Origin: Halovibrio variabilis
GTDB taxonomy: Bacteria; Pseudomonadota; Gammaproteobacteria; Pseudomonadales; Halomonadaceae
DNA length: 64,000 bases
Reading direction: 5' to 3'
NCBI RefSeq assembly: GCF_007991175.1
Contig: NZ_BJXV01000001.1
Location: forward strand, 372,001 to 436,000
This document shows, one piece after another, positions 7,254-41,296 of this stretch. Position 1 is the stretch's first letter. The number at the start of each line of letters is the position of its first letter. Position numbers and translations under genes: made by a program. A model generated the notes under the pieces. The model searched no databases. It saw only the letters and a program-made list of their open reading frames with translations, and had not been told where the DNA came from.

Positions 7254-7314
7254 GGCCTCTTAACAATTCAACCGCAGCCAAAAGCTGCTCATAACCACAC
7301 GAGTACAAGCAGCA

Positions 7315-7346: not shown

Positions 7347-7370
7347 GACAAGCACGAAAGGAGTATCACC

Positions 7371-9493: not shown

Positions 9494-9508
9494 GGAGAGC
9501 AATACGAC

Positions 9509-12752: not shown

Positions 12753-12773
12753 CGTCAATATTGGAGTTCTTCT

Positions 12774-13952: not shown

Positions 13953-14037
13953 TAAACTACGGCCCCTTTTGGGTATAAATTCCCAACGGACCATAACCCC
14001 CAAACGATCAACCCCCAAAAAATCTCAGGAGCAACGT

Positions 14038-14316: not shown

Positions 14317-14378
14317 TTTCGCCTCGAAGCGCCGCGGCCATGGTGTTGCCACTATAGTCGCGGCGTGAGGAGTACGCC

Positions 14379-16078: not shown

Positions 16079-16112
16079 TTCATTTATATACCCTGGACGC
16101 TAGTAAACCCCT

Positions 16113-17120
16113 ATGCCGCTACTGCAAAGCATTGTGCACCGCCTCGACCCAACGCTTGACGGTGAGCGCTTAACCCTTACCGCCGCGCCCCATACCCCAG
16201 AGCCCGGCGATGACCCGGTGATGGCAAGTTTGGTGGGCGCGTTGAACGACACCTATAACACCAAGCCCAAAGGCTGGGGGCGCTTTGCCGAAGAGGGCGA
16301 ACAGGCCGGGCCGCTGGTCATGTGGCTGCGTGACTACCTCGCCGGTGAACAGAGCTTTGCCGAGCTGTCTGTTGCGCTAGCCGAGCGGCTCGTTAAGCAA
16401 CTTCAAGAGCAGCTGTCAGTAAGTGGTTACTTAGTGATCAGTCACCAGCGCCAGGGCGATACTGAAACCCTGCTGATGGCGTTAGTACACCAGCGGGAAG
16501 GTATTGGCATTGACGCGGAACACCAGGCAGTGCCCGCTGCGCAGCTCAATACCCGCCAGCTGACCCTGGCCGCGCGTATCAACCTTACCCAATGGCAGAG
16601 CGATGCGCCCAGCGCTCAGTACGTGTCGTTCCTAAAAGATCGCGGTGGTAAAAAGCTCGCTGAAGGGCTGGTCGCGCTGCTGGGCATGGAAGAGGGCGTC
16701 GATGCCCCGGCCGAAACCCGCACGCTGCTCAAGGCGTTTAGCGACTACGTCGAGAAAGAGGATTTCGATGACGAGGTCAGCCGCGAAAAGACCGACACGC
16801 TGGTCGATTACGCCAACGAACAGCTGCGCCGGGGCGAGCCGATGACGCTAGACGAGCTTTCCGGGCTGGTCAATGAACAGCAGCCCAAGGCGTTTTACGA
16901 GCATATCCGTAACGCCGATTACGGACTCTCGCCGGAGATCCCGCCCGATAAGCGCACCTTAAGCCAGTTCCGCCGCTTTACCGGGCGCGCCGGTGGCGTC
17001 TCAATCAGTTTTGACTCCCACCTGCTAGGCTCAAGCATTGAGTACGACGCCGCCCAGGACCGCTTGATTATCAAGCAAGTCCCCAAGCAGTTAAGAGAGC
17101 AGCTCACCAAGCAGGATTGA
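16113..17120 (+). CDS. yejK: Nucleoid-associated protein YejK/NdpA
   Basis: A 335-residue protein matching the NdpA/YejK family in length (E. coli YejK is 335) and in motifs such as VGALNDTYNTKPKGWGRFAE near the N-terminus and the C-terminal RRFTGRAGGVSISFDSHLLG. It binds nucleoid DNA; its detailed role is poorly known in the family. It starts with ATG in an open context and is followed by a TerB-like gene. Confidence 0.93.
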   Translation: MPLLQSIVHRLDPTLDGERLTLTAAPHTPEPGDDPVMASLVGALNDTYNTKPKGWGRFAEEGEQAGPLVMWLRDYLAGEQSFAELSVALAERLVKQLQEQLSVSGYLVISHQRQGDTETLLMALVHQREGIGIDAEHQAVPAAQLNTRQLTLAARINLTQWQSDAPSAQYVSFLKDRGGKKLAEGLVALLGMEEGVDAPAETRTLLKAFSDYVEKEDFDDEVSREKTDTLVDYANEQLRRGEPMTLDELSGLVNEQQPKAFYEHIRNADYGLSPEIPPDKRTLSQFRRFTGRAGGVSISFDSHLLGSSIEYDAAQDRLIIKQVPKQLREQLTKQD

Positions 17121-17173
17121 GTGAAGAACGAAAAGGACGAAGCTGGAATCTGACTCTACCCAGGAGAAACCGT

Positions 17174-17638
17174 ATGCTGAACGCCATTAGTGATTTTTTT
17201 CAGCGCACCCTGGCGCAGCCAGAGCAGCGTGAAAACCAAACGCTGACCCTGGAGCTTGCCACTGCCGCGCTGCTGTGTGAAATCGTCCGCGCCGACTACG
17301 ACACCACCGATGAAGAGCTTGCCACGCTGCGCAGCATGCTGATTGAGCGCTACCGGTTAAGCGAGAGCGATGTGGAAGAGCTGATGGCGCTGGCCCAGGC
17401 AGAAGTGGATGACGCCGTCGATCACTACCAGTTTGTTAGCCTAATCAAAGACCATTATGGCTATGAGCAGCGCTGTGAGCTGGTCGCATTAATGTGGCAA
17501 CTGGCCTGGGTCGACGGTAATGTCGACCCCTTGGAAGAGCACCGGATTCGGCGTTTGGCGGACCTGCTGCATGTCAGCCACAGCGACTTTATCCGCACTA
17601 AGCTACAGGTTGAAGAGCGCCGTAACGACAATGTATAA
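17174..17638 (+). CDS. TerB-like (tellurite resistance/DjlA N-terminal) domain protein
   Basis: A 154-residue cytoplasmic protein. The helical pattern, with AALLCEIVRADYDTTDEELATLR and LVALMWQLAWVDGNVDPLEEHRIRRLADLLHV, has the two acidic clusters typical of TerB domains, which may bind metal. The ATG at 17174 has AGGAG seven bases upstream and is preferred to an upstream in-frame TTG. The stop overlaps the next start by eight bases. No tellurite genes lie nearby, so a general stress role is as likely. Confidence 0.85.
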   Translation: MLNAISDFFQRTLAQPEQRENQTLTLELATAALLCEIVRADYDTTDEELATLRSMLIERYRLSESDVEELMALAQAEVDDAVDHYQFVSLIKDHYGYEQRCELVALMWQLAWVDGNVDPLEEHRIRRLADLLHVSHSDFIRTKLQVEERRNDNV

Positions 17639-24303: not shown

Positions 24304-25197
24304 ATGTCTGTAATCAACACGAACATTACTGCGCTGATCGGCCAGAATAACCTGTCCAACTCTCAGTCCATGCTGGCCAATGCGCAAGAGCGTTTGTCTT
24401 CTGGTCTGCGCATCAACAGCGCGTCAGACGATGCCGCTGGCCAAGCCATCGCCAACAAAATGACCGCCCAGATCCGCGGCATGGAGCAGGCAAGCCGGAA
24501 CGCCAGTGACGGCATCTCCTTGGTGCAAACCATGGAAGGCGGTCTTGACCAAGTTAACGACAACCTGCAGCGTATTCGTGAGCTAGCAGTTCAGGGTGCC
24601 AACGACACCAACGCCGATGAAGACCGTGATGCAATCATCACCGAGATCAATGAGCGTTTGGAAGAAATTGATCGTGTGGCTGGCAGCAATAACTTTAACG
24701 GCACAAACCTGTTAAATGTAAGTGGTGGCGGTACTCTTAATATTCAAGTTGGTTCTAATACGGAAGATGAAGATGTTATTTCCGTTACTACGCTTGACGC
24801 CACCGTTGCAGGACTGGAATTGGATCAAGGTAGTGGCGCTAGCGTAATTACAGCTGCTACTGCTACAACTCCCTCAGAGTTCGCTATTGATGGCTCTGGA
24901 GCCAGTGCTGCGCATGATAGCTTCCAAAACTTGGTTGATGCAGTTGATACTGCAACTGAGACACTAGATACCAACCGTGCGACGCTGGGTGCTACGCTTA
25001 ACCGTTTCGACTCAGTGATCGACAATTTGGCGACGACGTCTACCAACCTTTCCGAAGCCCGTTCGCGTATCGAAGATGCCGACTACGCGGTGGAAGTATC
25101 TAACATGACGCGTGCTAATATTCTCCAGCAGGCTGGCACTTCCATGCTGGCACAGGCTAACCAGACGCCGCAGTCTGTACTGTCTCTGCTGGGCTAA
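24304..25197 (+). CDS. fliC: Flagellin
   Basis: A 297-residue flagellin, the filament subunit. The N-terminal D0/D1 region (INTNITALIGQNNL, RLSSGLRINSASDDAAGQAIA) and the C-terminal region (SRIEDADYAVEVSNMTRANILQQ, ending QTPQSVLSLLG) are standard. The variable middle is short (about residues 140-225), rich in Thr, Ser and Ala, and would hold any glycosylation sites. CGAGGAG precedes the ATG and a sigma-28 promoter lies upstream. A glycosyltransferase gene follows, which suggests that the flagellin is glycosylated. Confidence 0.97.
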   Translation: MSVINTNITALIGQNNLSNSQSMLANAQERLSSGLRINSASDDAAGQAIANKMTAQIRGMEQASRNASDGISLVQTMEGGLDQVNDNLQRIRELAVQGANDTNADEDRDAIITEINERLEEIDRVAGSNNFNGTNLLNVSGGGTLNIQVGSNTEDEDVISVTTLDATVAGLELDQGSGASVITAATATTPSEFAIDGSGASAAHDSFQNLVDAVDTATETLDTNRATLGATLNRFDSVIDNLATTSTNLSEARSRIEDADYAVEVSNMTRANILQQAGTSMLAQANQTPQSVLSLLG

Positions 25198-25384: not shown

Positions 25385-27688
25385 ATGGTCAAAAATAACT
25401 CTTCATCTATTACTCAAAAACGCAAACCCCGCGTACTTTGGGCTAATCCTTTTTGCTTATTGGATACCTCTAGCGGCGCGAGCATGACCGTGCGGCAAAT
25501 GTTGCTGCAACTGGTGGCCCATGGCTATGAGGTTCAAGTGTTGGGTGCGACGGTATTCGATAACCCCAAGGGCATGGGGCGGTTAAAGGAGCAATTCCCA
25601 GACCTAAGCGCTCACCAGCATCAGCTAATCGAAGCCGAGGATGGCCCGCTGACCCACCAATTGGTAGTGAGCTATAGCCACAACCGTAACCACTTTACGA
25701 CGCACGAAGAAGGACTTTGGTACAGCCAGTACCTCTACATGCTGGATTCCTTTAAGCCGGATATGGTGTGGTTCTACGGTGGCCAAACCTTGGACATGCT
25801 GATTGCTGATGAAGCGCGCGACCGCGGTATTCCTGTCGCCTTCTACTTAGCCAACGGCAACTATAAAGCGCCGCGCTGGTGCCGTGATGTGGATTTGATC
25901 CTCACCGACAGCCAAGCCACGGCAGATATGTATCGTAAGGAAGTTGGTTATGTAGCCAAACCAGTGGGTAAGTTTATCGCGCCGGAAAGCTTTGTTGCCG
26001 AGCACCATGAACGTAAGCGCCTGCTGTTTGTTAACCCTAGTTGGCAAAAAGGCGCCAGTGTGTTTGTCCAACTGGCAGAAAAGCTGGAGCGAGAAAGGCC
26101 CGATATTGAGCTTGAAGTGGTAGAAGCCAGGGCTGATTGGCCAGCAGTACTGCGAGAAACCACACGTAAAATGGGGAAACAGCGTAGTGCTTTAAGTAAT
26201 GTTGTGGTGACCCCAAATACCAGCGATATGCGCGGCCCTTACAGCCGAGCCCGTGTGGTGGTGGCGCCCAGCCTATGGTGGGAAAGCTCAGGGCGCATGC
26301 TGGCAGAAGCTATCCTGAATGGTATTCCGGCGCTAATTACCAACCGCGGCGGTATGCCTGAAATGATCGGCAACGCCGGTATCACCTTTGACTTCCCTGA
26401 CGCTTGTTATGAAGAGCCCTACCAACACCTACTTAGCGACGAAGAGCTTCAACCGCTAATGGATGCAGTCATCAGCTTTTTCGATGACGAAGCGCTTTAC
26501 CAAGATTATGTAGATCGTGCTTGGAAGATAGGTGAAGAGAAGCATCACCTTGATCGCGCCACTGACCGGCTGCTTACTGCGCTAGCGCCTTTAGTGCGTC
26601 AACACGCTGGCAACAAAGACTTCACTATTAGCCAGAAAAAGCGCCACCGCCAGCGTTTAACCTATCGGGCAACCAAGCCCGAATTTAAGGTTGATAATTC
26701 TCTACAGCAGTTGGTTAGCCCTAAAGCTGGAGCCAAACAGGTCAATGAGCCAGAAGCTAACCGCTTGTGGCTTACCGATAATTTTACCTGGGAAATTATC
26801 GGTAAAATTATGGTGCTCGATAACCGCGCCAGCCTGATCAAAAGTGGCTTTGCCGAACAAATGGCGGCGACAGAAGCCTTTGGTATTGTCGCTTTTGACC
26901 CCGCCAGCGAAATTAAAGATCCCAAGCAGTATGAAGGCAGCGATTATATCCAGTTATTCCAGCACGCCCTGCTAGGCGATGGAAAGGCGACAACCCTGCA
27001 CGCCTGTGTATCTCCAGAGATGAGCAGTATTCTTTCACCCCTACCGGTCGAGAAACTTCCCAAGCGCCACCATCTAGGTGCCAAGCCGCTGGCGGAATTG
27101 CCCATTACTACAGTGGCGCTAGACAGTATTGACGGCTTGGGAAATCTTGACTGGCTGATTCTTGATGAGCTAAGCGATGCCATGGCTGTGCTCGAGCATG
27201 GCAAAAAGTCGCTTACAGACACGCTGCTGATTCAGGCGCGTGTTGCCTTTCAGCTAACCCATGAAAAACAGCCCAACCTGGCAGAGCTACAACACTGGGC
27301 CAGCCGCAATGGCTTCCGCTTCTACCGCTTCCATAACATTAGCCACTACAGCCATTTGCCTGACGAACTAAACGCGAGAGTGCCCTGCGCAACTGAGCAA
27401 GAAGGTGCCGATGTACTATTTCTTCCCAGCCATGAGCGGATTGCGGCGCTGAGCAATGAAAATAAGACGAAACTCGCTTTTATATTAAGTGCAGTCTTTG
27501 CAGCGCATGATATTGCTTTTGATTTGATAGCAGACGTTAGTAAGGAGAAAGCGCTGGAGTTGCTTGAAGCCCAAGGGCTACTTCCACCGCCTGTAGCAAA
27601 AGATAATAATGAATTAAATGGAAAATTTCCAAAAAAAGAAACCGCTTTTTTAGGTCAGGATGATAATTTTTTAGAGTTGCTTAATTGA
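25385..27688 (+). CDS. Large glycosyltransferase with GT4 N-terminal half
   Basis: A 767-residue cytoplasmic protein. Residues 1-420 look like a GT-B glycosyltransferase of family 4: an N-terminal half with LDTSSGASMTVRQMLLQL, and the sugar-nucleotide site ARVVVAPSLWWESSGRMLAEA with NRGGMPEMIGNAGI. The last 330 residues (from about KPEFKVDNSL) have no motif that I recognise and may bind the acceptor protein. ATG 25385 is preferred to TTG 25358. Its position after fliC points to flagellin glycosylation. The next gene starts about 24 bases after the stop and uses lower-GC codons, marking the start of the acquired island. Confidence 0.8.
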   Translation: MVKNNSSSITQKRKPRVLWANPFCLLDTSSGASMTVRQMLLQLVAHGYEVQVLGATVFDNPKGMGRLKEQFPDLSAHQHQLIEAEDGPLTHQLVVSYSHNRNHFTTHEEGLWYSQYLYMLDSFKPDMVWFYGGQTLDMLIADEARDRGIPVAFYLANGNYKAPRWCRDVDLILTDSQATADMYRKEVGYVAKPVGKFIAPESFVAEHHERKRLLFVNPSWQKGASVFVQLAEKLERERPDIELEVVEARADWPAVLRETTRKMGKQRSALSNVVVTPNTSDMRGPYSRARVVVAPSLWWESSGRMLAEAILNGIPALITNRGGMPEMIGNAGITFDFPDACYEEPYQHLLSDEELQPLMDAVISFFDDEALYQDYVDRAWKIGEEKHHLDRATDRLLTALAPLVRQHAGNKDFTISQKKRHRQRLTYRATKPEFKVDNSLQQLVSPKAGAKQVNEPEANRLWLTDNFTWEIIGKIMVLDNRASLIKSGFAEQMAATEAFGIVAFDPASEIKDPKQYEGSDYIQLFQHALLGDGKATTLHACVSPEMSSILSPLPVEKLPKRHHLGAKPLAELPITTVALDSIDGLGNLDWLILDELSDAMAVLEHGKKSLTDTLLIQARVAFQLTHEKQPNLAELQHWASRNGFRFYRFHNISHYSHLPDELNARVPCATEQEGADVLFLPSHERIAALSNENKTKLAFILSAVFAAHDIAFDLIADVSKEKALELLEAQGLLPPPVAKDNNELNGKFPKKETAFLGQDDNFLELLN

Positions 27689-27711
27689 TGCCCTTAGGAG
27701 GGAGTAATTTT

Positions 27712-28995
27712 ATGCTTGCTGATGAAACATTTGATATTTATGACGAAATTGTTTCCAGTCTTCCTAATGACTATGCATTAACCTATTCTCCGCTTATAAG
27801 GGAGGGGTTTAAGTTTTGTCTTAAAGAGGTGAATCGGAAACATGCGCCTATTGCTAAGGGAGAACTAACATTTTCTGGCGTAAGTTCTGATAACTACCCT
27901 CAAAAAAGAAATATAAATAGAGTTGGTTACTTTTTTGACGAAAATTTTTTAAGGAGTGTTACTGAAGGGTTTATGGAAAAGGGAATTGAAGTGGTCAAAC
28001 TTGAGCTTCTTCCTGCCCAATTTAAAAACTTGTTAAGTAATAAGCAAAAAGAAGAGATCGAATTTTTTGATTCTAGGCTAAAAGAGAGCTTTGGTACTAG
28101 TATTCGTTCTAGTTTGGAAAATAGGTTTTATCTGATGAATGGCATGGTGGCTAAATACTATGAATTATTGAAAAGTTCAGGCGTCGATGCTCTTGTTTTT
28201 AGAGTTTATTATGGTTTGTATTATTTCCCTATTATTTTTGCTTGCAAAATGTTAGGTATTACTGTTATTGATGTACAGCATGGGATTAATGGTTTTAAGC
28301 ATCCATGTTATTCAAAATTTAAGAGAAATGAAGTAGATAGTCCATTGCTTCCAGATGTTTTTTGGACCTGGAGTGATATGTCAACTAAAATGCTAACGAA
28401 AGATAGTTTTATTGAAGAGGGAGCTCGTGTTGTAGAAGGTGGTAATCCTATTTATTCGGTACCTAGTACAGTTACCACTGACAACGGCGCAAAAATTACA
28501 TACGTAAAAGGGAATCGAATTCTTTATACACACCAACCTAAATCAAAAGGGGCTCCTGTCCCGGTTGATGAAATTAAATTGCTTTATAAAATAAAAAGGC
28601 AAAAGGTTATCATAAGGCCTCATCCTCTTCATATGGAAGAAGCAATTGAAGTTCAGGCATTATTAAAAAAGGAAGGTGTGAAATCTAAGATCGAGGACTC
28701 TGTTAAAGTGCCGATTAATGAGTCGCTTGCTCAAGCTAGTGTCCATGTTACCTACTCGTCTACTTGTGCATTAGATGCTCTAAATTTCGGTATACCATCG
28801 GTTTATTGCTCTGACTATATTGGGGAAGTTGAGGCCGAGTTCTCTACAGGACTTCTTTTTAGGATAGATGAAGTTAAAAAAGAAAAATTAGAGCCAATTC
28901 CTGAAAAGGCTATAGGATACAGTTTAGGATCTAATGATAAAGTCTCTTATGCTATCTCCCAGATATTATCTAGATCCAAAAGGGCGGAGTTATAA
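27712..28995 (+). CDS. Putative surface-carbohydrate transferase (GT-B-like), family uncertain
   Basis: A 427-residue protein, clearly A+T-richer than its left neighbour. It has a GT-B-like or capsule-synthesis-like pattern: VIDVQHGINGFKHP, then PDVFWTWSDMST, a KVIIRPHPLHMEEA stretch and the late SSTCALDALNFGIPSVYCSDY, as in proteins that move activated sugars or sugar phosphates. ATG 27712 has AGGAGGGAG nine bases upstream; an earlier in-frame TTG/ATG at 27685 is less likely. With the sialic acid genes at 31.5-34.4 kb it is a candidate for the nonulosonate transferase. That role is inference; no specific family is recognised. Confidence 0.6.
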   Translation: MLADETFDIYDEIVSSLPNDYALTYSPLIREGFKFCLKEVNRKHAPIAKGELTFSGVSSDNYPQKRNINRVGYFFDENFLRSVTEGFMEKGIEVVKLELLPAQFKNLLSNKQKEEIEFFDSRLKESFGTSIRSSLENRFYLMNGMVAKYYELLKSSGVDALVFRVYYGLYYFPIIFACKMLGITVIDVQHGINGFKHPCYSKFKRNEVDSPLLPDVFWTWSDMSTKMLTKDSFIEEGARVVEGGNPIYSVPSTVTTDNGAKITYVKGNRILYTHQPKSKGAPVPVDEIKLLYKIKRQKVIIRPHPLHMEEAIEVQALLKKEGVKSKIEDSVKVPINESLAQASVHVTYSSTCALDALNFGIPSVYCSDYIGEVEAEFSTGLLFRIDEVKKEKLEPIPEKAIGYSLGSNDKVSYAISQILSRSKRAEL

Positions 28996-29583
28996 GTGTT
29001 TAATGATCAGACAATACTCATCACAGGTGGCACTGGTTCCTTTGGCCATACGTTTATACCTATGCTTTTGGCGCGATATAATCCAAAAAGTCATAATTTT
29101 CTCCCGCGATGAAATGAAACAGTGGGACATGGCCAAGAAATTTGAAGGAGACTTACGCGTATGTTTCTTTATTGGAGATGTACGCGATCGCGAGCACCTC
29201 TATCGTGCACTGGATGGAGTGGACTATGTTGTTCAAGCTGCGGCGACTAAGATTGTACCTACTACTGAATACAACCCATTTGAATGCATCAAAACTAATG
29301 TTTTGGGAGCAATGAACTTGGTAGATGCCTGCATCGATAAGGGTGTAAGAAAACTCGTGGCGCTTTCAACTGACAAAGCTAGTAGCCCGATTAACCTTTA
29401 TGGGGCAACGAAATTAACCTCGGACAAGCTCTTTGTGGCAGGTAATCATTATGCTGGCCCTGACCCTTCGCGTTTTTCTGTGATTCAGCATGGAAATGTA
29501 ATGGGCTCTCGCGGTTCGGTAATCCCATTCTTTATATCGATTAAAGATAAAGGCTGACGGATCCCCACGAAATAAGTAACTAA
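28996..29583 (+). pseudogene. Broken UDP-GlcNAc 4,6-dehydratase (PseB/CapD type)
   Basis: The start (GTG 28996, GGAG upstream, directly after the previous stop) encodes FNDQTILITGGTGSFGHTF, the Rossmann motif of PseB/FlaA1 dehydratases. The frame is lost at the A5 run 29085-29089 and continues one frame over (KVIIFSRDEMKQWDMA) through GDVRDREHLYRAL, the catalytic-region YGATKLTSDKL and HGNVMGSRGSVIPFF. The match ends after LTDP near 29565, again with a frame change, so about 120 C-terminal residues are missing. The first step of pseudaminic or legionaminic acid synthesis is therefore not encoded here. One or both frame changes could be sequencing errors, but the truncation is real. Confidence 0.85.
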
Positions 29584-29968: not shown

Positions 29969-30184
29969 AAGGGTGAGATTAAATCTTATAACGAATTGAA
30001 AGCTGACATAGCAGCTATGCAACAGCAGATAGTTGAAGCTAAGAAGAACGAACGTGCGAATGCACTTCAAGAAGCAAAGCGTCTTTTCAAAAAGTTTTGC
30101 TTTACTGCAGGGATGTTCATAGGTTCACTTGCTGAAGGAAGTGATGAAAATGAAAGATGTAATTCGAAAGTTAAATCGTTCTGA
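29969..30184 (+). pseudogene. Fragment of an H-NS-like protein
   Basis: The open frame reads SYNELKADIAAMQQQIVEA and then KKNERANALQEAKRLFKKF, the coiled-coil oligomerisation part of H-NS-family proteins. No ATG lies at the expected place: GGGTGAG (29971-29977) is followed by AAATCTTAT where ATGTCTTAT would be expected, as if two bases were lost. The C-terminal DNA-binding part is absent: after SLAEG the frame runs into unrelated residues and stops. TTG 29996 could start a 62-residue truncated form. The 3' end overlaps the methyltransferase start. Truncated H-NS forms can act as dominant inhibitors, but decay is the simpler view. Confidence 0.55.
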
Positions 30185-30824
30185 TGTATGGGACTATGAA
30201 AATGGCTTTTACTGGTTCTCACCAAAGTCTCGATTAAACAAGATGCTTGCTCATTATGAGCTATACAAGACAATAGCCTACACTCCTGGGCATATATTCG
30301 AATTGGGGGTGTACAAAGGCGCATCTTTAGTCCGTTTCGCAACTTTTAGAGATGCGCTCGAAAATGATTTTTCAAGAAAAATTGTAGGATTCGATGCGTT
30401 TGGTGCTTTCCCAACTAGTAATCTCGAAGTTGAAGAAGATTTGCATTTCATTGAAAAATTTGAAGGTGCAGGAGGGCACGGACTTAGCGATGATGAAGTT
30501 GCTGATGTCTTGTCTTCGAAAGGTTTTGAAAACTTTAATTTAGTTAAAGGGAATATTTTTGATACCTTGCCAAAATATCTCTCTGATAATCCTGAAACAA
30601 GAATTGCACTGTTGCATCTTGATATGGATGTAAAAGAGCCAACCGATTTTGCCTTAGAACTACTGTACGACAGAATGGTTCCAGGTGGTATTATTGTGTT
30701 TGATGACTACAATTCAGTCGCGGGTGAAACAATTTCCGTTGATGATTTTGTTTCAAAGCATAGGCTGAAACTCGAAAAACTACCTTTCTATAATGTGCCT
30801 GCTTTCGTTAGAAAGCCAGTTTAG
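30150..30824 (+). CDS. TylF/MycF-type SAM-dependent O-methyltransferase
   Basis: A 224-residue class I methyltransferase of the macrocin-O-methyltransferase (TylF) group. HIFELGVYKGASLVRFA is the SAM-binding motif I, FDAFGAFP and LLHLDMDVKEPT hold the acidic residues, and PGGIIVFDDYNS provides the metal-binding Asp pair typical of this family. It would methylate a sugar hydroxyl, probably on a surface or flagellin glycan. AAGGAA lies nine bases before ATG 30150; ATG 30144 is also possible. It lies between a broken dehydratase and the sialic acid genes, and its codons are A+T-rich like theirs. Confidence 0.82.
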   Translation: MKDVIRKLNRSDVWDYENGFYWFSPKSRLNKMLAHYELYKTIAYTPGHIFELGVYKGASLVRFATFRDALENDFSRKIVGFDAFGAFPTSNLEVEEDLHFIEKFEGAGGHGLSDDEVADVLSSKGFENFNLVKGNIFDTLPKYLSDNPETRIALLHLDMDVKEPTDFALELLYDRMVPGGIIVFDDYNSVAGETISVDDFVSKHRLKLEKLPFYNVPAFVRKPV

Positions 30825-31405: not shown

Positions 31406-31526
31406 TAACTTGTGACCGCCTTTTCAACTTCATAAGCGCTAAAACTAAAATACAATAATTTACTCAAACCGATATGGCTAGCATTATCGCCTACATTACC
31501 TGCGAAGTAAGCTAGATGAAGAGTCT

Positions 31527-32219
31527 TTATTTAATTATGCCTTTTTCAACAAATGACTCTGCAATTTTCCAGTCCAAGTTTTCATCTAAATCTAGAGAGT
31601 ATTTTGGATCCATGATAAAAGCTTCCTCAATGCCGGTATTAAAACTTCTCTCTTTTTTTAAAAAATCAATACATGTAAAGTATAAAGCACCATTACATTC
31701 ATAAACAGGCGGCATATCTTGTCTTCTAGTTTGCTTCCTTTTACTTAGCAGTGGGATCAGTTTATTGTCTTCTAAGCTATAGAAAAAAGCAGGATGCTTT
31801 TTAACGCGGGAGACAGAAACAGAGGAAAGAGAGTTATTATCAATACTTTTTTTAATAATAGAGTCAATATGCAGGTTTGTCCGGAACGGTGAGGTTGGCT
31901 GTAAAAGCAGCAAGTAATCGTAATCACCCTCAATCAAGTTTAATGCATGAATTATGACGTCCATGCTGCTACTAGTATCTGAAGCAAGAGCAACTGGCCG
32001 TTTAAAAGGGGTCTCGCAACCAGCTTTCTGAGCTGTGGTAATGATTTCATCACTATCAGAAGATAGAATTAATCTGTCTATATACCGGCTCTTTAATCCG
32101 CTCTCTATCGTCCAGTTAATTAATGGCTTACCAGCTAAAGGCTTTATATTCTTACCTGGAATTCCTTTTGAGCCCCCGCGTGCAGTTATGAGGGCAAGAA
32201 TTTTTTTTCCATTATACAT
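31527..32219 (-). CDS. neuA: CMP-N-acylneuraminate (sialic acid) cytidylyltransferase
   Basis: A 230-residue CMP-nonulosonate synthetase that activates sialic acid with CTP in the cytoplasm. LITARGGSKGIPGKNIKPLAG at the N-terminus is the nucleotide-binding signature, with LSSDSDEI and LLLLQPTSPFR as further family motifs. The C-terminal MDPKYSLDLDENLDWKIAE supplies the metal-binding acidic residues. The start overlaps the end of neuC by eight bases. It is the last gene of a minus-strand operon neuB-neuC-neuA. A legionaminic or pseudaminic acid substrate cannot be excluded from this gene alone. Confidence 0.93.
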   Translation of the reverse strand: MYNGKKILALITARGGSKGIPGKNIKPLAGKPLINWTIESGLKSRYIDRLILSSDSDEIITTAQKAGCETPFKRPVALASDTSSSMDVIIHALNLIEGDYDYLLLLQPTSPFRTNLHIDSIIKKSIDNNSLSSVSVSRVKKHPAFFYSLEDNKLIPLLSKRKQTRRQDMPPVYECNGALYFTCIDFLKKERSFNTGIEEAFIMDPKYSLDLDENLDWKIAESFVEKGIIK

Positions 32220-33345
32220 TTTTATTTAAATCCTTAAATTGCTTTTGATTAGCTATTTTCCAAGCCTCACTCTCTAAAGCTTCCATAAATTTTTCTGCAC
32301 TATTGCCATCCCCATAATATGTACAGAGTTCGTAACGAGTATGCTCGTGAAAATCACTAATTTTATTTAAAATTTGTGAGGTATCAAAATCAATATCAAA
32401 TATCGATTCATGATAAAATCTATTCCGCTGCCTAGTGCCAATATTGATTGTAGGGACACCATAAATTGGCGCTTCATGTACGCCAGCGCTAGAGTTTCCT
32501 ATTAAGAAGCGAGCATCTTTAAGAAAACGTAAGAAATACTCAAATCGTAAAGATGGGAAAAGACGAATATTTTTATGTCCTTCTAGCTTTTTATATGCCT
32601 TAAAAATAAATTCAGAACCATGATCGTTATTAGGATAAACCGCTATATAGTTTTGATTGCTTTCGAGCAAAGTCTTAACAAAAATATTAGCATGCTCTTC
32701 CTGTTTTTCATATTCAGTAGTAACAGGGTGAAGTATCGCCACACCATAGCTTTCAAAGGGTATTTGGTACCGCTCTCTTGCTAACTCAAGGCTAGGTAAA
32801 TTAGTTGAAAGCATTACGTCAACGTCGGGAGAACCTATTCTAAATATAGTTGAAGGATCCTCTCCCAGCTGTTGCAGTCTTTTTTCAGCCACTTCACTAG
32901 CCACAAAGTGAATATGAGAAAGCTTAGAAATAGCGTGACGCATCAGTTCGTCTATGGTCCCAGAAATTTCACCGCCTTCAATGTGGGCGACCAGCGTGTT
33001 ACGCAAAGCGCCTGTTGTAGCTCCAGCCAGAGCTTCAACTCGGTCGCCATGTACCACGATCATATCGACTGGGTGTTCATGCAAATATCGACTTAGGCCA
33101 ACAATTGTGTTTGCGAGGACTATTTCCATGTCCTCGCCTTCGATCTGATTCATATAGGTAAATACATTTTCAAAACCAGAACGGTAGATTTCCTTTACCG
33201 TATATCCGTATTTGGCCAGCAAATGAATGCCGGTAGCAAAAATTGTGTATTCGAAGTCATTATGTTTATCTACGGAACTAATAAGCGTTTTAAGCTTACC
33301 AAAATCAGCCCTAGTGCCAGTTAGGAAGAGTATTTTTTTTTTCAT
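32212..33345 (-). CDS. neuC: UDP-N-acetylglucosamine 2-epimerase (hydrolysing)
   Basis: A 377-residue enzyme that would convert UDP-GlcNAc to ManNAc plus UDP. Motifs: ILFLTGTRADFGKLKTL at the start, VVHGDRVEALAGA, HIEGGEISGTIDELMRHAISKL and GNSSAGVHEAPIYGVPTINIG, all standard in the NeuC/LegG group. As far as I recall the wording is close to the Campylobacter NeuC of the sialic acid pathway, though LegG (acting on UDP-diacetylbacillosamine) is related. The ATG begins on the base next to the stop of neuB, so the genes are tightly coupled. Confidence 0.92.
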   Translation of the reverse strand: MKKKILFLTGTRADFGKLKTLISSVDKHNDFEYTIFATGIHLLAKYGYTVKEIYRSGFENVFTYMNQIEGEDMEIVLANTIVGLSRYLHEHPVDMIVVHGDRVEALAGATTGALRNTLVAHIEGGEISGTIDELMRHAISKLSHIHFVASEVAEKRLQQLGEDPSTIFRIGSPDVDVMLSTNLPSLELARERYQIPFESYGVAILHPVTTEYEKQEEHANIFVKTLLESNQNYIAVYPNNDHGSEFIFKAYKKLEGHKNIRLFPSLRFEYFLRFLKDARFLIGNSSAGVHEAPIYGVPTINIGTRQRNRFYHESIFDIDFDTSQILNKISDFHEHTRYELCTYYGDGNSAEKFMEALESEAWKIANQKQFKDLNKNV

Positions 33346-34389
33346 TTACTTAAAATCCATCCAGTTCAAGTGCTCATCCATTTCAATATCACGTGTTGCG
33401 CATTTTCCTAAAACATCGTTGAAATATTCAGCTTTTAATTCGCCCACACCCGGTCGCTTTACCCATAAATTATCCATTGTAAAGACTTCACCTACATTGA
33501 CAGGCTTAATAGTCACCAGCGTTGAGAAAGCAAAATCTCTTGTAACTTGCTCTTCAATTAGAAGATCATTTTTGCTGCCGCCGCGCTCTCTTTTAAGCAC
33601 TTTTGAGCTTTCAATTAATTCAGATAATTGTTTAGGGTCCATTGAGCAAACAATATCGGGGCCAGGCCGATCCATTGAGTCGGTGAAATGTCGCTCCAAT
33701 ATAGAAGCCCCCAAAGCAACTGCACCTAAGCATGCCAAATTATCAGTAGTATGATCAGACAGACCAAACACCGCATCAGGAAACTTATCGGCCAATTCGG
33801 TCATGGCTCCAAGCCTGACTAGTTCTGGAGGTGTCGGATACAAATTTGTAGTATGTAATAATGCAAAAGGTATTTCGTTCCCTCTAAAAATATTAACTGC
33901 TTTTTCAACACTCTCAATATCATTCATGCCAGTGCTAATTATGACTGGCTTTCCGAAGGAGGATATATATTCTAGCAAAGGATAGTTGTTACACTCACCA
34001 GATCCAATTTTAAAAGCTGGAACATTGAATTTAATTAATCTGTCGACAGCGGCTCGTGAAAAGGGGGTGCTAATGAAAATCGCACCTTTATCTTGAACAT
34101 ACTGCATTAACTCATGCTCATCTTTCTCATCTAATGAGCAGCGTTCCATGATATCATATATAGAAATATCGGCATTACCAGGAATAGAACTTTTAGCCAT
34201 CTTACTCATCTCATCTTCAACGATATGAGTTTGATGCTTAATTACCTCTGCGCCAGCCGTAATGGCAGCATCGACCATGTCTTTGGCAACCGAAAGTGAT
34301 CCTTCATGATTAATACCTATTTCAGCAATTACAAGCGGATCGTAATCATATCCCACTACTCTTCCAGCAATTTGGAAACATGGATGCAT
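33346..34389 (-). CDS. neuB: N-acetylneuraminate synthase
   Basis: A 347-residue synthase that condenses ManNAc with phosphoenolpyruvate to give N-acetylneuraminic acid. The TIM barrel carries [70 protein letters not shown] and ERHFTDS; residues from about 285 form the SAF (antifreeze-like) domain that closes the active site. From memory this pattern matches the true sialic acid synthase (NeuB1) of Campylobacter better than its legionaminic or pseudaminic paralogues. AAGGAG lies seven bases before the ATG. It is the first gene of the neuBCA operon. Confidence 0.94.
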
Positions 34390-35166: not shown

Positions 35167-35293
35167 ATGTCCAAGTCTAATCTGCACGCTCTATAGCAAC
35201 CAGAGGTAGCCACCAACGACCTATTGCACTAGCTAATCCTTCAGAGTGCCCGTAATCTAAATGCCAAGGAGGTCGAGTCAGAGCTTCAGCTTG
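35167..35293 (+). pseudogene. IS256-like transposase N-terminal remnant
   Basis: From ATG 35167 the frame reads MSKSNLHAL, stop, QPEVATNDLLH, stop, LILQSARNLNAKEVESELQLAL. The last part resembles the N-terminal region of IS256-family transposases. Two in-frame stops show decay, and the left end of an IS1380-like copy interrupts it at 35294. Confidence 0.45.
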
Positions 35294-35607
35294 CCTTATT
35301 CATGACGCAGGCCTGAAAACAAAGATGACAAATGGTGCTGTCTAAGCAAATTAGCATGTTACGCCAAGAGCCTGGGCCTAGAGATCCATTCGCTATTAGT
35401 GAAAGATTACCTTCCTGGTCACCAACCTGCAACGGCTCTGTTCATGTGTAATTAAACGGCGATGCCACCACTAGTAATGCTGGTGGATTACTACTCCGCG
35501 AAGAGCTTGATATCAGCGACGTTATCAGCGCGCTTGAATATCAGCTAGTTGACCCGCGTGATCCTTTGCGCGCACGTCACTCGCTGGCCAGCCAACTCTG
35601 TACCCTG
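35294..35607 (+). mobile_element. Degenerate left end of an IS1380-family element
   Basis: This 314-base stretch begins with the same terminal sequence (CCTTATTCATGACG) as the element at 35608 and parallels its first 311 or so bases with many substitutions. Its transposase frame reads ISERLPSWSPTCNGSV, has a stop at VQL (V-stop-L), and then continues without a frame break through GGLLLREELD to DPRDPLRARHSLASQL. It ends exactly where the second copy begins, so the later element sits against or inside it. Confidence 0.75.
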
Positions 35608-37334
35608 CCTTATTCATGACGTGGGCCTGAAAACAAAAATAGCGAATGGTATTCTCTTTTAAAATCAGAACGTTCCGACAAGAACCTGATGCAAGAGGAC
35701 CATCCGCTATGGGTGAAAGACTACCTTCCTGGTCACCGACCTGCAACGGCTCTGTTCATGTGCAATTAAGCGGCGATGCCACCACCAGCGACGCCGGGGG
35801 GTGATACTTCGTGAAGCGCTCGATAATAGTGGAGTGATTGGCGCGCTTGAAGACCACTTGATTGACCCGCGTGATCCGTTGCGCGTACGCCACTCACTGG
35901 CCAGCCAACTCCGTACCGTCGTGCTGCAGCGGGCCATGGGATGGGGCGACTTAAACGATACTGACGTACTGGGTCACGACCCACTCTGGCGGCTGGCCTG
36001 TAGCGATGCACGAAGCTTAGTGCCGCTGGAGGAAGCACGCCCTTCGCAAGCCACGCTATCTCGCTTAATCACCTGCTTGAGTCAGCCAGACAACCTCGAC
36101 ACGGTGCACGAAGGCTTATTGCGGTTGGCGATCTGGCGCTTTAACAGCTTGCCAGATGTCACCCCTTATACGGCGAATACGCCGATGACCCTCGATATCG
36201 ATGGGCTGCCCATCGAGGTCTTTGGGCACCAGGGTGGCAGTGTCTACAACGGCTATGCCGGTGCCCGGATTTACTCAACGCTTATCGCCTCTATCGCCGA
36301 AACCGGTGACATGGTGGGCGGCTTACTTCGAGAAGGGAATGCCGGCCCGGCGGAAAACGCAGATACCTGGATCCCTCACCTCGTTCAGCGTTTGATGGAA
36401 GGCACCCATCGCGACGTGGATCAGTTTCGCGTACGCCTGGATGCGGGCTTTACCGATGGCGAAACGCTACGCGCGCTCGACTCAAAGGATATCGCCTATC
36501 TGGGGCGGCTAAAAAGCAATAAAACGTTACTGACACTGGCGGCACCCTATCTCAAACGGCCGCCCGGGCGACCACCGGAGACGCCGCGGGAGTGGTGCCA
36601 TGACCTGGACTACCAGGCCGGTAGCTGGGAGCCACCTCGCCGTGTGGTATTGATCGTCCAGGAAAAAACCGATGACCTGCTGCCTCATGCCTTCTTCCTG
36701 GTAACAAACCTCAGTCGCTATGATTACCCGCCGGAGAAAGTCCTGGCCCTTTATCGCAAACGCGGCAAAGCAGAGGCCCACATGGGCGAACTCAAGTCGG
36801 CTCTTGATCTCCATTTATCCTCAACAGACCGGGGGCACTTAACGGTGCAGGACGTCATGGCCCGGAATCAGGTTAACCTGCTGTTGAGCCTCACTGCTTA
36901 CCAGGTATTGTACAGTGTCCGTTGCGTGATGGAGCGACATGCCGGGCATGGCTGGAGCCTGATGAAACTGCGAGAACAGGTGTTGAAAGTCGCGGCGATG
37001 TTCACAGTAAAAGCCCGCCAGATCCGGGTGCGGCTTGGTGTGGCGGCCAATAAGTGGTGGCCCCGCTTACTTCCCGGTATCCGACGACTGCAGCCACTTC
37101 CCGACTGATACCCCATGAGTGGGTTCAACGGTGTAAGCATTACCATCGACGACAGGGTGGGGGCGGATCGTGGGTAAGTGGCGGTTGTTGATGCCAAAAC
37201 GTGATAAAAAACGGGCATTAAAAGATGATTTTGCATTGTTATGACGTCAAGAAGACGTCAGATAGCCACAAAGCCCTCCTCACGTAGTCATCAGGCGCTA
37301 AATAGTGGCGCTACTGCCGATGTGATGAATAAGG
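35608..37334 (+). mobile_element. IS1380-family insertion sequence, 1727 bp
   Basis: The left end CCTTATTCATGACGTGGGC and the complement of the right end CCTTATTCATCACATCGGC match at 16 of 19 positions, defining terminal inverted repeats at 35608 and 37334. The size is usual for IS1380. The only gene is the transposase. No clear target duplication is visible: the left flank is another IS1380 remnant and the right flank is the tail of a flagellin gene, which implies rearrangement after insertion. Confidence 0.85.
35709..37108 (+). pseudogene. IS1380-family transposase, frameshifted near the N-terminus
   Basis: ATG 35709 encodes MGERLPSWSPTCNGSVHV and runs to SDAGG, where a run of six G (35796-35801) is followed by TGA. 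The remaining 435 codons are open one frame over, from GTG 35801. They include the DDE-type catalytic parts TLDIDGLPIEVFG, VRLDAGFTDGE and the Y-x-K-R-G-K-A-E-x-H-M-G-E box (LYRKRGKAEAHMGELK). The older copy at 35294 reads through the same point without a break, so a one-base loss in the G-run is the likely cause. Initiation at GTG 35801 might still give a nearly full enzyme. Confidence 0.85.
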
Positions 37335-37632: not shown

Positions 37633-37893
37633 TCAATGCTTTATTTCTTTACGCAATGCTTTAATGTCATTTTCCGTTAGCTCTGATGCAGCAGCGATCT
37701 GAGTATCCGTTAACAGGTTCATTTCGATCAGCTTCCGGGCAACGTCTTCGCGGCCTTCTTCAAGGCCTTCTCGCTTAGCTTCGTTAGCAAATGAAACCTC
37801 ATCATGCAGTGCTCGCTCCCGCACAAGGGCGAGGAGTCGAGTTTTCTCATCAGCGCTGAGCGGTTTGATGCGGCTCATGTTTTTAGTAGTCAA
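37633..37893 (-). CDS. Duplicate of the C-terminal tail of an Rpn-family nuclease
   Basis: An 86-residue product that repeats the C-terminus of the gene directly upstream: SRIKPLSADEKTRLLALVRERALHDEVSF, EAKREGLEEG and DVARKLIEMNLLTDTQIAAASELTENDIKALRKEIKH (each with close matches there). It lacks the nuclease domain. The start overlaps the end of the larger gene by four bases. It is probably either a remnant of tandem duplication or a free tail, and may be translated with the large protein. In Rpn proteins this tail lies after the PD-(D/E)XK domain. Confidence 0.7.
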   Translation of the reverse strand: MTTKNMSRIKPLSADEKTRLLALVRERALHDEVSFANEAKREGLEEGREDVARKLIEMNLLTDTQIAAASELTENDIKALRKEIKH

Positions 37894-38759
37894 TGCTTTA
37901 TTTCCTCACGCAATGCCCTGATGTCTTCTTCCGTCAGCTCTGATGCAGCGGCGATCTGAGCATCCGGTAATAGATTCATCTCGATCAGCTTCCGGGCAAC
38001 ATCTTTGCGGCCTTTTCCTATTCCCTGCTCCATCCCTTGCTTAATCCCTTCTCGCTTAGCTTCGTTGATAAACGAAACTTCATCGCGTAGTGCCCGTTCT
38101 CGTACAAAGGCGAGGCGTCGGGTTTCTTCGTCTGCGCTGAGCTGCTTGATCCGGCTCATGGCCTTTTTGACAGGTTCGTGGGCAATGTTGGCCATGGTTA
38201 ATTCCTCCTGCCAATGTTTAAAAAAGGTGATCCAGTCAAGCAGTGGGCCGGGTGGCAAACCCAAGCGGTCTGCTTTGTTTAGTTCGATCAGGTTCATCTG
38301 CAGAATGTTCCCGAGCGAGACGTTGGGTTGTTGCTCATCGCGCATTTCAAAACGCCAAATCGCTTGCTGGCGCTCGTCCTCGGTGGCCGTGAACAAGTCG
38401 AAATCCAGCAGGTGCAGCCCTACTGAAGCCCGTAATTCTTGGTAATCCTCGCCCATGTTGAGCTGTGAGCCAAGCATGCGGGTAAGATAAAACAAACCGC
38501 GTTTGTGCCAAGCGCCATAGCGGCGCACCTGTATCTCTACATTATAGCAGTGGCCTTCGCTATCACGCGCTAACACATCAAGAATAATGTATTTGCCGGT
38601 TAGTTCGTTAGCTTCAATGTTGGGGTTGAGGATGTCTACTGAGGCTATGTCAGGCAGGTCTGGGCGCAGGTCGTTGATCAGATTAACCAGAAGATCAGGC
38701 GCTTCTGCGAAAAGCCGTTTAAAAACGTAATCGTTGGTAGGGTCGAGTAGATCGGCCAT
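37890..38759 (-). CDS. Rpn family recombination-promoting nuclease/putative transposase
   Basis: A 289-residue member of the PD-(D/E)XK Rpn family (transposase_31 type). LLDPTNDYVFKRLFAEAPDLL opens the nuclease domain; the catalytic pattern is D (ILDV) followed by ExQ (YNVEIQVRRYGAWHKRGLFY). The tail has the usual repeat-like segment with IKQGMEQGIGKGRKDVARKLIEMNLL. ATG 38759, with GGGAAA upstream, is preferred to TTG 38780. Rpn proteins promote RecA-independent recombination and some limit phage; which applies here is unknown. Its position at the edge of the rearranged region fits. Confidence 0.88.
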   Translation of the reverse strand: MADLLDPTNDYVFKRLFAEAPDLLVNLINDLRPDLPDIASVDILNPNIEANELTGKYIILDVLARDSEGHCYNVEIQVRRYGAWHKRGLFYLTRMLGSQLNMGEDYQELRASVGLHLLDFDLFTATEDERQQAIWRFEMRDEQQPNVSLGNILQMNLIELNKADRLGLPPGPLLDWITFFKHWQEELTMANIAHEPVKKAMSRIKQLSADEETRRLAFVRERALRDEVSFINEAKREGIKQGMEQGIGKGRKDVARKLIEMNLLPDAQIAAASELTEEDIRALREEIKH

Positions 38760-39009
38760 GTTTTTCCCTAATTTAGACAATTAAAGTTTATTAAGAAAGT
38801 TTAGCAGATTGGCTAGAAGTCGTCTTTCACCGGCTCATAAAGGGCAAATGATAGAATCAAAGCTGTGTCCGCTATCAAGCAGCCATAAGATTTAGCATGC
38901 TTATTCGATAAAAGAATAAAAATTAATTTGCATATTCTTTATTTGCTATTGAAGCAGGAGTAAAATGATAGCCATTGTCGTTTGAAGCTACCCAAAAGGA
39001 ATCAATAGC

Positions 39010-39780
39010 ATGCCACTGCCACGTCCGCTTAATATTTCCCTCGCCGCGCTTGCGCTAAGCGTCGCCAGCGGGTTGTTCGCCACCTCTGCCCAAGCCGATA
39101 CGCTGCGGGTGGGTATGTCCGGCGGTTATTTTCCCTTTACGTTTGTGGAGCAGGACGAGCTAAAGGGTTTTGAAGTCGATGTCATGAACGCTGTGGGTGA
39201 ACTGACCGGGGAGGATATCGAGTTTGTTACCGCGAGCTTTTCAGGTTTAGCGGGCATGCTGGAGTCTGGTCGTATCGATACCATTGCTAACCAGATTACG
39301 ATCACCCCAGAGCGTGAAGCCAAGTATGCCTTCACGGAGCCCTATGTGTACGACGGGGCGCAGGTCGTGGTGCGGGCAGGTAATGAGTCTATTCAGGGCG
39401 TTGAGGATTTATCCGGCAAAAGCGTTGCGGTCAACCTGGGTTCGAACTACGAGCAGCTTCTGCAAGCGTTACCCAATGCCGATGAAATCGATATTCGCAC
39501 CTATGAGTCCAATATCGAGCAGGATGTGGCCTTGGGCCGCGTCGAAGCCTTCGTGATGGACCGCGTGAGTGCTACGCAGGTCATTAAAGAGAAAGGCCTA
39601 CCATTAGAGCTGGCTGGTCAGCCGTTCTCAACCATTGAGAACGCGCTGCCGTTTCGTGATGACGAGGCGGGCCGCGAACAGCGCGACCGCGTTGACGCAG
39701 CCCTGGCAGAGCTTCGCGAAAGCGGTGAACTGCGCGAGATATCTGAAAAGTGGTTTGATACCGATATCACTCAGCCGTAA
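39010..39780 (+). CDS. Polar amino-acid (probably cystine) ABC transporter binding protein
   Basis: A 256-residue periplasmic solute-binding protein of family 3. The signal peptide ends ATSAQA-DTLRVG. The mature part has GYFPFTF, DELKGFEVDVMNAVGEL and NQITITPEREAKYAFTEPYVYDGAQVVV, a pattern shared with cystine and related binding proteins (FliY/TcyJ/TcyK). AAAGGA precedes the ATG. A hairpin terminator stands between it and the permease gene, which would allow more binding protein than membrane parts. The cystine assignment is by resemblance only. Confidence 0.9.
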   Translation: MPLPRPLNISLAALALSVASGLFATSAQADTLRVGMSGGYFPFTFVEQDELKGFEVDVMNAVGELTGEDIEFVTASFSGLAGMLESGRIDTIANQITITPEREAKYAFTEPYVYDGAQVVVRAGNESIQGVEDLSGKSVAVNLGSNYEQLLQALPNADEIDIRTYESNIEQDVALGRVEAFVMDRVSATQVIKEKGLPLELAGQPFSTIENALPFRDDEAGREQRDRVDAALAELRESGELREISEKWFDTDITQP

Positions 39781-39803
39781 CTTCTAGCGCAATTCGTTTC
39801 ACG

Positions 39804-39830
39804 CGGCCGTGGCATTGCCACGGCCGTTTT
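39804..39830 (+). terminator. Hairpin with T-tail after binding-protein gene
   Basis: CGGCCGTGGC-ATT-GCCACGGCCG is a perfect 10-bp stem followed by TTTTA. It lies between the binding-protein and permease genes and probably ends most transcripts, with read-through to the membrane components. Confidence 0.88.
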
Positions 39831-39875
39831 ACTTATGAGCGATTTGGCTAATTTTAATGACGACGTTGGATTGCC

Positions 39876-40544
39876 ATGCTTAACCTTGACTATATGTGGG
39901 GGCTGTTGCCGGTTCTGCTGCGCTATTTGCCGCTCACCCTTCAAATGGCGACGATCGCCATGTGCTTTGCGCTGATACTGGCGTGCCTGCTGGCGGTGGT
40001 TCGCGTCTCAAAAGTGCCGTTCTTCAACGGTGTGGCGCTGTTGTTTATCTCGTTTTTCCGCGGTACGCCGCTGCTGGTTCAGCTGTTTCTTTTCTACTAT
40101 GGTCTGCCGCAGCTGATTAGCGCGTTGATCTCGATTACCGGCGTCACCGCCGCGGTGCTGGGGTTAACACTCCACTTTTCTGCCTATATGGCCGAGTCCA
40201 TACGTGCGGCGATTGTGGGGATTGACCGCAGCCAGACCGAAGCTGCGCTCTCCATCGGCATGACCCAGTCACAGCTGATGCGACGCATTATCTTGCCCCA
40301 GGCAACTCGGGTGGCGACACCGACGCTGATGAACTATTTCATCGATATGATTAAGGCGACCTCGTTGGCCTTTACATTGGGCGTTACCGAGCTGATGGGC
40401 GCTACGCAAAAAGAAGCTGCCGGCAGCTTTCTCTATTTAGAAGCGTTCTTGCTGGTGGCATTGATTTATTGGGCGGTGGTGGAAGTGCTCTCCTGGGGCC
40501 AGCGTCGATTGGAAATTTACCTGAATAAGGCCTATCAACGATGA
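39876..40544 (+). CDS. Polar amino-acid ABC transporter permease
   Basis: A 222-residue HisM/GlnP-type permease with five hydrophobic segments, the usual length for the family. FISFFRGTPLLVQLFLFYYGLP and the EAA-loop region SIGMTQSQLMRRIILPQA are the typical motifs; the latter contacts the ATPase. It overlaps the next gene by four bases (ATGA). It resembles TcyL/YecS of cystine transporters, consistent with the binding protein upstream. There is only one permease, so it probably works as a homodimer. Confidence 0.93.
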   Translation: MLNLDYMWGLLPVLLRYLPLTLQMATIAMCFALILACLLAVVRVSKVPFFNGVALLFISFFRGTPLLVQLFLFYYGLPQLISALISITGVTAAVLGLTLHFSAYMAESIRAAIVGIDRSQTEAALSIGMTQSQLMRRIILPQATRVATPTLMNYFIDMIKATSLAFTLGVTELMGATQKEAAGSFLYLEAFLLVALIYWAVVEVLSWGQRRLEIYLNKAYQR

Positions 40545-41296
40545 TTTCGCTGCAAGGCATCACCAAACGTTTTGGCGACCATACGGTATTTCACGATATC
40601 GATTTGAGTCTTTCCCAAGGCGAGATCATTGTGATTATTGGGCCTTCTGGAACGGGTAAGTCAACGCTACTGCGCTGTATTAACTTCCTTGAAAAGCCAG
40701 ATGCAGGCCGTTTGCAGGTGGGCGACCTGAGTGTTGATACCCAGCGCGCCAGTCGGGCAGATATCTTGGCGCTGCGTCGGCGCACCGCGTTCGTGTTTCA
40801 GAACTATGGTTTGTTCGCCAACAAAACCGCGCTGGAGAATATCAGCGAGGGCATGATCGTGGTGGATAAGCTGCCCAAAGCTAAGGCCCATGCGCGGGCC
40901 AGAGAAATTCTGCAGCGCATTGGCCTAGCGGAAAAAGCGGATGCTTACCCGGCTTCACTTTCCGGCGGCCAGCAGCAGCGGGTAGGCATTGGCCGGGCGA
41001 TGGCCGCGAATGCGGATGTCATTCTGTTTGATGAACCGACTTCATCCCTTGACCCTCAATGGGTAGAAGAGGTGTTGAGCCTGATGAAGCAGCTAGCGGT
41101 AGAGCGCCAAACGATGATCGTGGTCACCCACGAGATGCAGTTCGCGCGGGAAGTGGCGGACCGTGTGGTATTCATGGACGAAGGTGGCATCGTCGAACAA
41201 GCCCCACCGGAGGAGCTATTCACCGCACCCAAAGATGAGCGAACGCGTCACTTCTTGCGCAAAATTCTAGCGCCCATGGGGCAGCCAGTGCCGTAG
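40541..41296 (+). CDS. Polar amino-acid ABC transporter ATP-binding protein
   Basis: A 251-residue ABC ATPase: Walker [10 protein letters not shown] (about residues 34-42), Q-loop [13 protein letters not shown], signature LSGGQQQRV, Walker [15 protein letters not shown] and H-loop [15 protein letters not shown], as in GlnQ/TcyN. It overlaps the permease gene by four bases and completes a three-gene import operon. GC content and codon style match the chromosome rather than the island to the left. Confidence 0.94.

Follow-up and report, generated by a model that had tools for sequence, protein, structure and literature searches.

The stretch analysed here, 64,000 nucleotides of contig NZ_BJXV01000001.1 of Halovibrio variabilis (hereafter the window), contains a set of neuB, neuC and neuA genes, predicted to direct the synthesis of a sialic acid, in the vicinity of a flagellin gene. 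The genes are arranged in the order flagellin, a gene for a GT4 glycosyltransferase protein, gtHP (encoding a GT-B protein with an HP motif), a pseB remnant, tylF and, in the reverse orientation, neuA-neuC-neuB, followed by the debris of insertion sequences (IS) and an IS1380 transposase gene (Table 1). The distance between the flagellin gene and neuA is 6.3 kb.

Table 1. Genes and other features of the flagellin/neuB-neuC-neuA region (positions in the window; aa, amino acids).
Feature	Position	Strand	Description and basis
neuB	33346..34389	minus	sialic acid synthase, SiaC type; 347 aa
neuC	32212..33345	minus	hydrolysing UDP-GlcNAc 2-epimerase, Neu type; 377 aa
neuA	31527..32219	minus	CMP-nonulosonate (CMP-Neu5Ac) synthetase; 230 aa
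flagellin gene	24304..25197	plus	PF00669, PF00700; likely acceptor
GT4 glycosyltransferase protein, 776 aa	25358..27688	plus	PF00534; relatives adjoin flagellin in 8 stretches of the genus
gtHP, GT-B protein with HP motif	27685..28995	plus	candidate nonulosonate transferase; synteny, motif, fold
pseB remnant, frameshifted and truncated	28996..29554	plus	similarity to pseB of relatives
TylF-type O-methyltransferase	30129..30824	plus	PF05711; likely start 30144 or 30150
remnant, start of a polysaccharide pyruvyl transferase gene, just past neuA	31453..31530	minus	65% over 26 residues to L114 8790-9965 (PF04230)
tandem degraded copies, start of an IS1380 element	35292..35917	plus	two copies, 80-81% alike, at the element edge
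IS1380 family transposase	35801..37108	plus	NF033539, 282.8 bits, above cut-off

All three neu reading frames are intact; neuB abuts neuC, which in turn shares 8 bases with neuA. This layout and the GC content of the genes (37–40%, compared to 52.7% for the window) bear out the description, in an earlier note made from the letters of the window, of three tightly coupled A+T-rich genes, and the NeuB motifs quoted there were found in the protein. The sequence AAGGAG, a ribosome-binding site, is located directly 5′ of the neuB ATG. A DNA search in E. coli gave no match. NeuB scored 384.5 bits with the TIGR03569 model, slightly below its cut-off (399.65), and 219 bits with the PseI model, while NeuC scored 400.6 bits with TIGR03568 (cut-off 235.9). 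Since NeuB and NeuC encoded by legionaminic acid (Leg) loci of the genus reach 456.8 and 455 bits with these models, they cannot distinguish proteins for neuraminic acid (Neu) from those for Leg. NeuA is a CTP_transf_3 protein, whose top NCBIfam model is PseF (144.2 bits, below the cut-off of 205.7) and whose top solved relative is a CMP-N-acetylneuraminate synthetase; neuA is 55–56% identical to neuA of the loci L035 (from a Chromatiales metagenome-assembled genome) and L114.

The closest solved enzyme to NeuB is SiaC of N. meningitidis (61% identity, 205 of 334 ungapped residues), with the same residue at 20/20 positions chosen for comparison. The N. meningitidis gene belongs to a capsule locus, whereas the genes of the window lie near flagellin in the order neuB-neuC-neuA. 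The identity of NeuB to PseI (8h2c), one gene from a pseudaminic acid (Pse) locus of the genus and two from Leg loci is only 30–33%. In a tree of 46 NeuB sequences, the window protein pairs with that of L035 (support 100/98) within a group of 31 including SiaC (100/99); 11 Pse-locus genes, three Leg-locus genes and PseI 8h2c lie apart from this group, with L131, PseI 8h2c, L137 and L034 forming long branches, some joins of which may be false. The NeuC tree separates 20 Neu-type sequences from LegG (5zlr) and three Leg-locus genes of the genus (100/100), the window copy grouping with L035 and L114 (100/99). The sequences were picked by hand to span taxa (29 of the 86 SiaC-type loci L029–L114 for NeuB and, from the same set, 18 of the 19 Neu-type rows besides the window for NeuC), and the references were Leg- and Pse-locus genes of the genus together with the solved SiaC, PseI and LegG, Campylobacter NeuB1 not being among the compared sets. 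Grouping of NeuB and NeuC within LegI/LegG clades, named in the earlier note as the result that would speak against its proposal, was not observed with these references, and the placement of both proteins outside the Leg and Pse groups supports its view that a Neu-type gene set lies beside flagellin glycosylation genes.

The pocket residue Gly131 of NeuB is replaced by Phe in 11 of the 12 Pse rows, and its presence excludes Pse but not Leg as the product. A Pse product of the gene set was ruled out by the 33% identity of NeuB to PseI of the genus and by the absence of the Phe marker. Asn182, which fits Neu, is shared by 29 of the 30 SiaC-type rows and by none of the 12 Pse or three Leg rows. 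The equivalents of both positions are discussed in a passage of PMC7371886, which gives Tyr for Leg at the position of Asn182.

The genome contains a single NeuB-family gene. A search for LegB in 25 genomes, including this one, gave a top score of 129.4 bits here (cut-off 475), compared to 516.8 bits for LegB of the genus; scores above 400 bits were obtained in three of the 25 genomes and a score above the cut-off in one. At E 1e-90 the genome gave no match to an intact PseB, the pseB remnant being the only trace, while PseB exceeds the cut-off in 12 of the 82 genomes of the genus. CMP-N-acetylneuraminate (CMP-Neu5Ac) is the best-supported predicted product, a call that rests mainly on the NeuC type and the missing LegB, and we consider synthesis of Neu5Ac by neuB-neuC-neuA to be quite likely.

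NeuB homologues are present in 18 of the 82 genomes of the genus, the one analysed here included, and those of the other genomes are at most 37% identical to the window protein when full-length (short fragments, at most 45%). Examination of 18 stretches, from all 17 other genomes, revealed that eight of these relatives carry flagellin, a GT4 relative and a nonulosonic acid cassette at the same site. The cassette is of the pseB type in six cases (L121, L122, L129, L130, L131 and L132) and of the Leg type in two (L123, with LegB at 516.8 bits, a partial LegC and NeuD, and L124); L131 was classed by pseB alone, its NeuB lacking the Phe and standing apart. The locus, in which flagellin is joined at a conserved site by sugar genes and a glycosyltransferase, has the make-up of a flagellin glycosylation island. 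Islands of this kind for Pse or Leg, in Campylobacter, Aeromonas, Clostridium and Geobacillus, likewise combine flagellin, glycosyltransferase and nonulosonic acid genes, whereas here a predicted Neu5Ac cassette is accompanied by a pseB scar.

This scar consists of positions 28996–29088 in one frame (residues 1–31) and 29084–29554 in another (residues 31–187 of the 332 of the L121 protein). It corresponds to the broken 4,6-dehydratase which the earlier note had described as the only such gene nearby; no other was found in the vicinity, but an intact WbpM/CapD-like gene is present on another contig. The note took the damage to agree with a pathway that does not need the enzyme. Relatives have pseB in intact form at this position, so that what is left here is more plausibly the scar of a Pse cassette that has been replaced. 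In the simplest reading, a Pse cassette was apparently replaced at this site by neuB-neuC-neuA, and H. variabilis seems to have exchanged the genes for one flagellar sugar for sialic acid genes at a single spot.

In the four close homologues of gtHP within the genus, the gene lies between that of the GT4 protein and the Pse or Leg cassette. Two distant homologues (G303 and G179), found without the use of neuB, have as neighbours pseI in one case and neuA with a NeuB homologue in the other. The HP motif (His313-Pro314) is invariant in 9/9 sequences, and fold comparison assigned the protein to GT-B without finer placement. No Pfam family was matched above cut-off (a weak sub-cut-off match to DUF6716 was obtained), and a PDB sequence search with the L121 homologue gave no match. 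The GC content of gtHP is 35.5%; since low values are common to the copies of relatives (36–47%), its composition is no mark of transfer. The Maf-type MptE-like domain PF01973 was found in none of the 82 genomes of the genus, this one included (the control matched only in four archaea), and hmmscan with this model does detect the Maf-type gene in the loci L084 and L144. A search for GT-52 in the genome gave no match, but none was obtained in the control genomes either. By synteny, motif and fold, gtHP is a candidate nonulosonate transferase.

Two further arrangements were observed around these genes. L147 (G179) encodes, at 6273–8138, near neuA and a gtHP relative, a protein of 621 aa that resembles NeuB in its first part but not in its second. 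L129 (11493–14999), L130 (10841–14374), L131 (3695–8161) and L132 (9042–12623) have no gtHP; their GT4 proteins (1168–1488 aa) are extended by fusion, the added part being GT2 in L129 and, in L131, an FkbM methyltransferase.

Analysis of the wider distribution of NeuB revealed matches at E 1e-80 or better in 7 of the 369 genomes of a class sample (this genome included). At least 563 genome stretches (genome_contigs) encode NeuB relatives, and many of the best 80 come from environmental Flavobacterium and other taxa, which rules out rarity of this NeuB type in free-living bacteria. The suggestion of the earlier note that a free-living host makes the sialic acid unusual therefore does not hold: judging by these sequences, SiaC-type NeuB occurs widely and shows no tie to hosts, and the surprise is the link with flagellin.

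Contiguous neuB-neuC-neuA genes were detected in 6 of the 87 loci examined, the window included, and lie near flagellin also in L035, L084 and L144. In L035, flagellin and a FliD-like gene are located just ahead of the set, as are genes that we take, by eye, to be hook-associated and FliS-like. In L084 (Virgibacillus senegalensis) the set is followed, on the opposite strand, by flagellin, a Maf-type gene and, directly after it, a frame-broken tylF; L144 (G299) has a flagellin fragment at the end of the stretch, a Maf-type gene and neuB-neuC-neuA. Flagellin is near the contiguous set in four of the five loci with enough flank (the window, L035, L084 and L144, not L114), compared to 0/12 other, hand-chosen Pseudomonadota loci (L092, L093, L142, L143, L145 and L148–L154); the hypergeometric probability is 0.002 (0.007 without the window). 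This count is post hoc and calls for caution. It excludes L088 (too short), short contigs (L029 and L033, for example) and those of the 80 named loci that belong to Bacteroidota or other phyla.

In L073, L086 and L089 a relative of tylF separates neuB from neuC, and in L100 one immediately precedes neuC (four of the 80 named loci; five with the fragment beside Maf in L084). None was found in the other stretches of the genus, nor in two further sets of 6 and 7 stretches. The TylF enzyme possibly acts on sialic acid.

HisF-, HisH- and PseA-like genes occur near Neu-type neuB and neuC in L035 (12898–15526; here presumably so, the names having been assigned by eye), L148 (11386–14114) and L151 (7148–9813), and might point to sialic acid in an acetamidino form. 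Such genes also surround the SiaC-type NeuB of L143 (G385; 8964–17426), together with LegB (56%), PtmE and a NeuC nearer to LegG.

On balance, we favour the following explanation of the locus, to which we give somewhat better than even chances. An ancestral Pse cassette would have decayed to the pseB piece, and horizontally acquired neuB-neuC-neuA would have taken its place. NeuC would convert UDP-N-acetylglucosamine into N-acetylmannosamine, NeuB would condense the latter with phosphoenolpyruvate to Neu5Ac, and NeuA would activate this to CMP-Neu5Ac; gtHP, retained from the earlier system, would transfer Neu5Ac to flagellin or to a glycan begun by the GT4 protein, and the TylF enzyme may methylate it. 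Expression, the enzyme activities, the donor and acceptor of gtHP and the target of methylation are presumed in this scheme. Attachment of Neu5Ac to flagellin is, on the whole, the more probable outcome. A broader proposal, that the flagellin locus of the genus accepts interchangeable Pse, Leg and Neu5Ac cassettes behind one family of GT-B proteins with an HP motif that tolerates all three CMP donors, the flagellum here carrying Neu5Ac, perhaps O-methylated by TylF, is tentative, and we would sooner doubt it than accept it.

Several observations weigh against the favoured explanation. The sialyltransferases of GT-38, GT-52 and GT-80 have the HP motif and the GT-B fold in common with gtHP, but gtHP has no conserved D/E-D/E-G motif (a single EEG occurs in the window copy, and the other four close homologues have none). 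Its top fold matches are 2-epimerases (that sialyltransferases do not head the list is no evidence for or against), and its origin lies in a Pse/Leg context. These three points make gtHP no more than a putative user of CMP-Neu5Ac.

In a phylum sample of 398 genomes, nine (this one included) have a Neu-type neuC at E 1e-85, and the loci of the eight others show neither flagellin nearby nor the neuB-neuC-neuA order. This would agree with CMP-Neu5Ac being made for a surface polysaccharide or lipopolysaccharide, the genes lying near flagellin only because the island is prone to insertions. The neuB-neuC-neuA set of L114, where no flagellin was seen, is joined by genes for a pyruvyl transferase and a polysialyltransferase-like protein, and just past neuA of the window part of a pyruvyl transferase gene of this kind has survived; the genome also has an exopolysaccharide export locus. 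No match to the polysialyltransferase family PF07388 was found in the genome, however (the control matched in four genomes), and the recurrence of nonulosonic acid cassettes at this site in the relatives, with the candidate transferase retained, makes a polysaccharide destination rather unlikely.

The gene set is surrounded by debris on both sides, with pseB, the pyruvyl transferase gene and the IS copies broken, and the locus may be decaying; a promoter and terminator scan found promoter-like sites at chance level. If neuB-neuC-neuA were silent or without a transferase, flagellin would be unglycosylated. We regard this as improbable, given the ribosome-binding site ahead of neuB and the intact reading frames of neuB, neuC, neuA, tylF, gtHP and the GT4 gene.

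The remaining points concern the sugar. The three Leg rows have Ser or Thr at the position of Asn182, not the Tyr of PMC7371886, so that this marker is loose. In G385 a SiaC-type NeuB, 64% identical to that of the window, lies within a Leg cluster, and NeuB type alone is therefore no proof of the sugar. The genome of L035 contains, on another contig, a LegB-like gene (421 bits, below the cut-off of 475; 51% to LegB of the genus), which leaves the sugar of the closest relative open as well. The intact WbpM/CapD-like dehydratase of the H. variabilis genome (711 aa) is encoded on contig 25, and the genes beside it, read by eye, are presumably wza/wzb/wzc-like exopolysaccharide export genes. These last three findings could be accommodated if the product were of the legionaminic type or another 2,4-diacetamido sugar, with the pathway fed by this dehydratase and NeuC and NeuB acting on a bacillosamine-type sugar; this is very improbable, however, as NeuC groups with Neu-type NeuC and not with LegG, no LegB was found in the genome, and no aminotransferase occurs among the reading frames of at least 150 aa at 7–20 kb of the dehydratase contig.

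The LegB-like gene of the L035 genome stands with PtmE-like genes in L163 (G449 contig 83; 38965–47490, contig numbering), beside which no NeuB homologue was found in the 20 kb examined.

The idea of Neu5Ac on flagellin is not wholly new; the chemistry is the missing part. According to passages of a 2016 survey (PMC5109656), NeuAc was not observed in flagellin glycans, and neuraminic acid is predicted for Geobacillus type I islands, which have epimerase, aminotransferase and nucleotidyltransferase genes and, in the locus of one strain, a methyltransferase gene. To us, the first three of these genes suggest Leg. Neuraminic acid genes are also predicted, in an excerpt of PMC4875605, for the island of one enterobacterial strain, and the words “flagellin sialylation” occur once in PMC2846917. 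As stated in part of PMC11339370, Maf of C. botulinum puts Neu5Ac on flagellin in engineered E. coli; Neu5Ac as a flagellin O-glycan is what is proposed here, but in that system the donor is engineered, the native sugar is a Leg derivative and the transferase is Maf, whereas here it would be gtHP. No report of natural Neu5Ac on flagellin was found in the open-licence literature, covered mostly at the level of titles and the beginnings of abstracts.

If the chemistry is confirmed, a flagellar sialic acid like that coating animal cells would be an unusual decoration and a natural case of flagellin sialylation, and would offer a transferase family outside Maf to examine. The locus would then also be a clear example of the exchange of sugar cassettes at one chromosomal site with a scar left behind, and would indicate that a flagellum may carry host-identical sialic acid for reasons other than mimicry of a host.

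Among the neighbouring features, the frame at 29969–30184 has what we take to be an H-NS-like look, Pfam having given a weak unrelated match alone. The families of the transporter genes at 39010–41296 are also represented downstream of the locus in L122 and L131, and L136, which is fragmented, has them close to the locus; in L121 the stretch stops short of this region. A transposase-type gene of the PD-(D/E)XK nuclease family (PF12784) is located at 37633–37893 and 37890–38780, and upstream of it lies a 111-base direct repeat whose copies are 87% alike.

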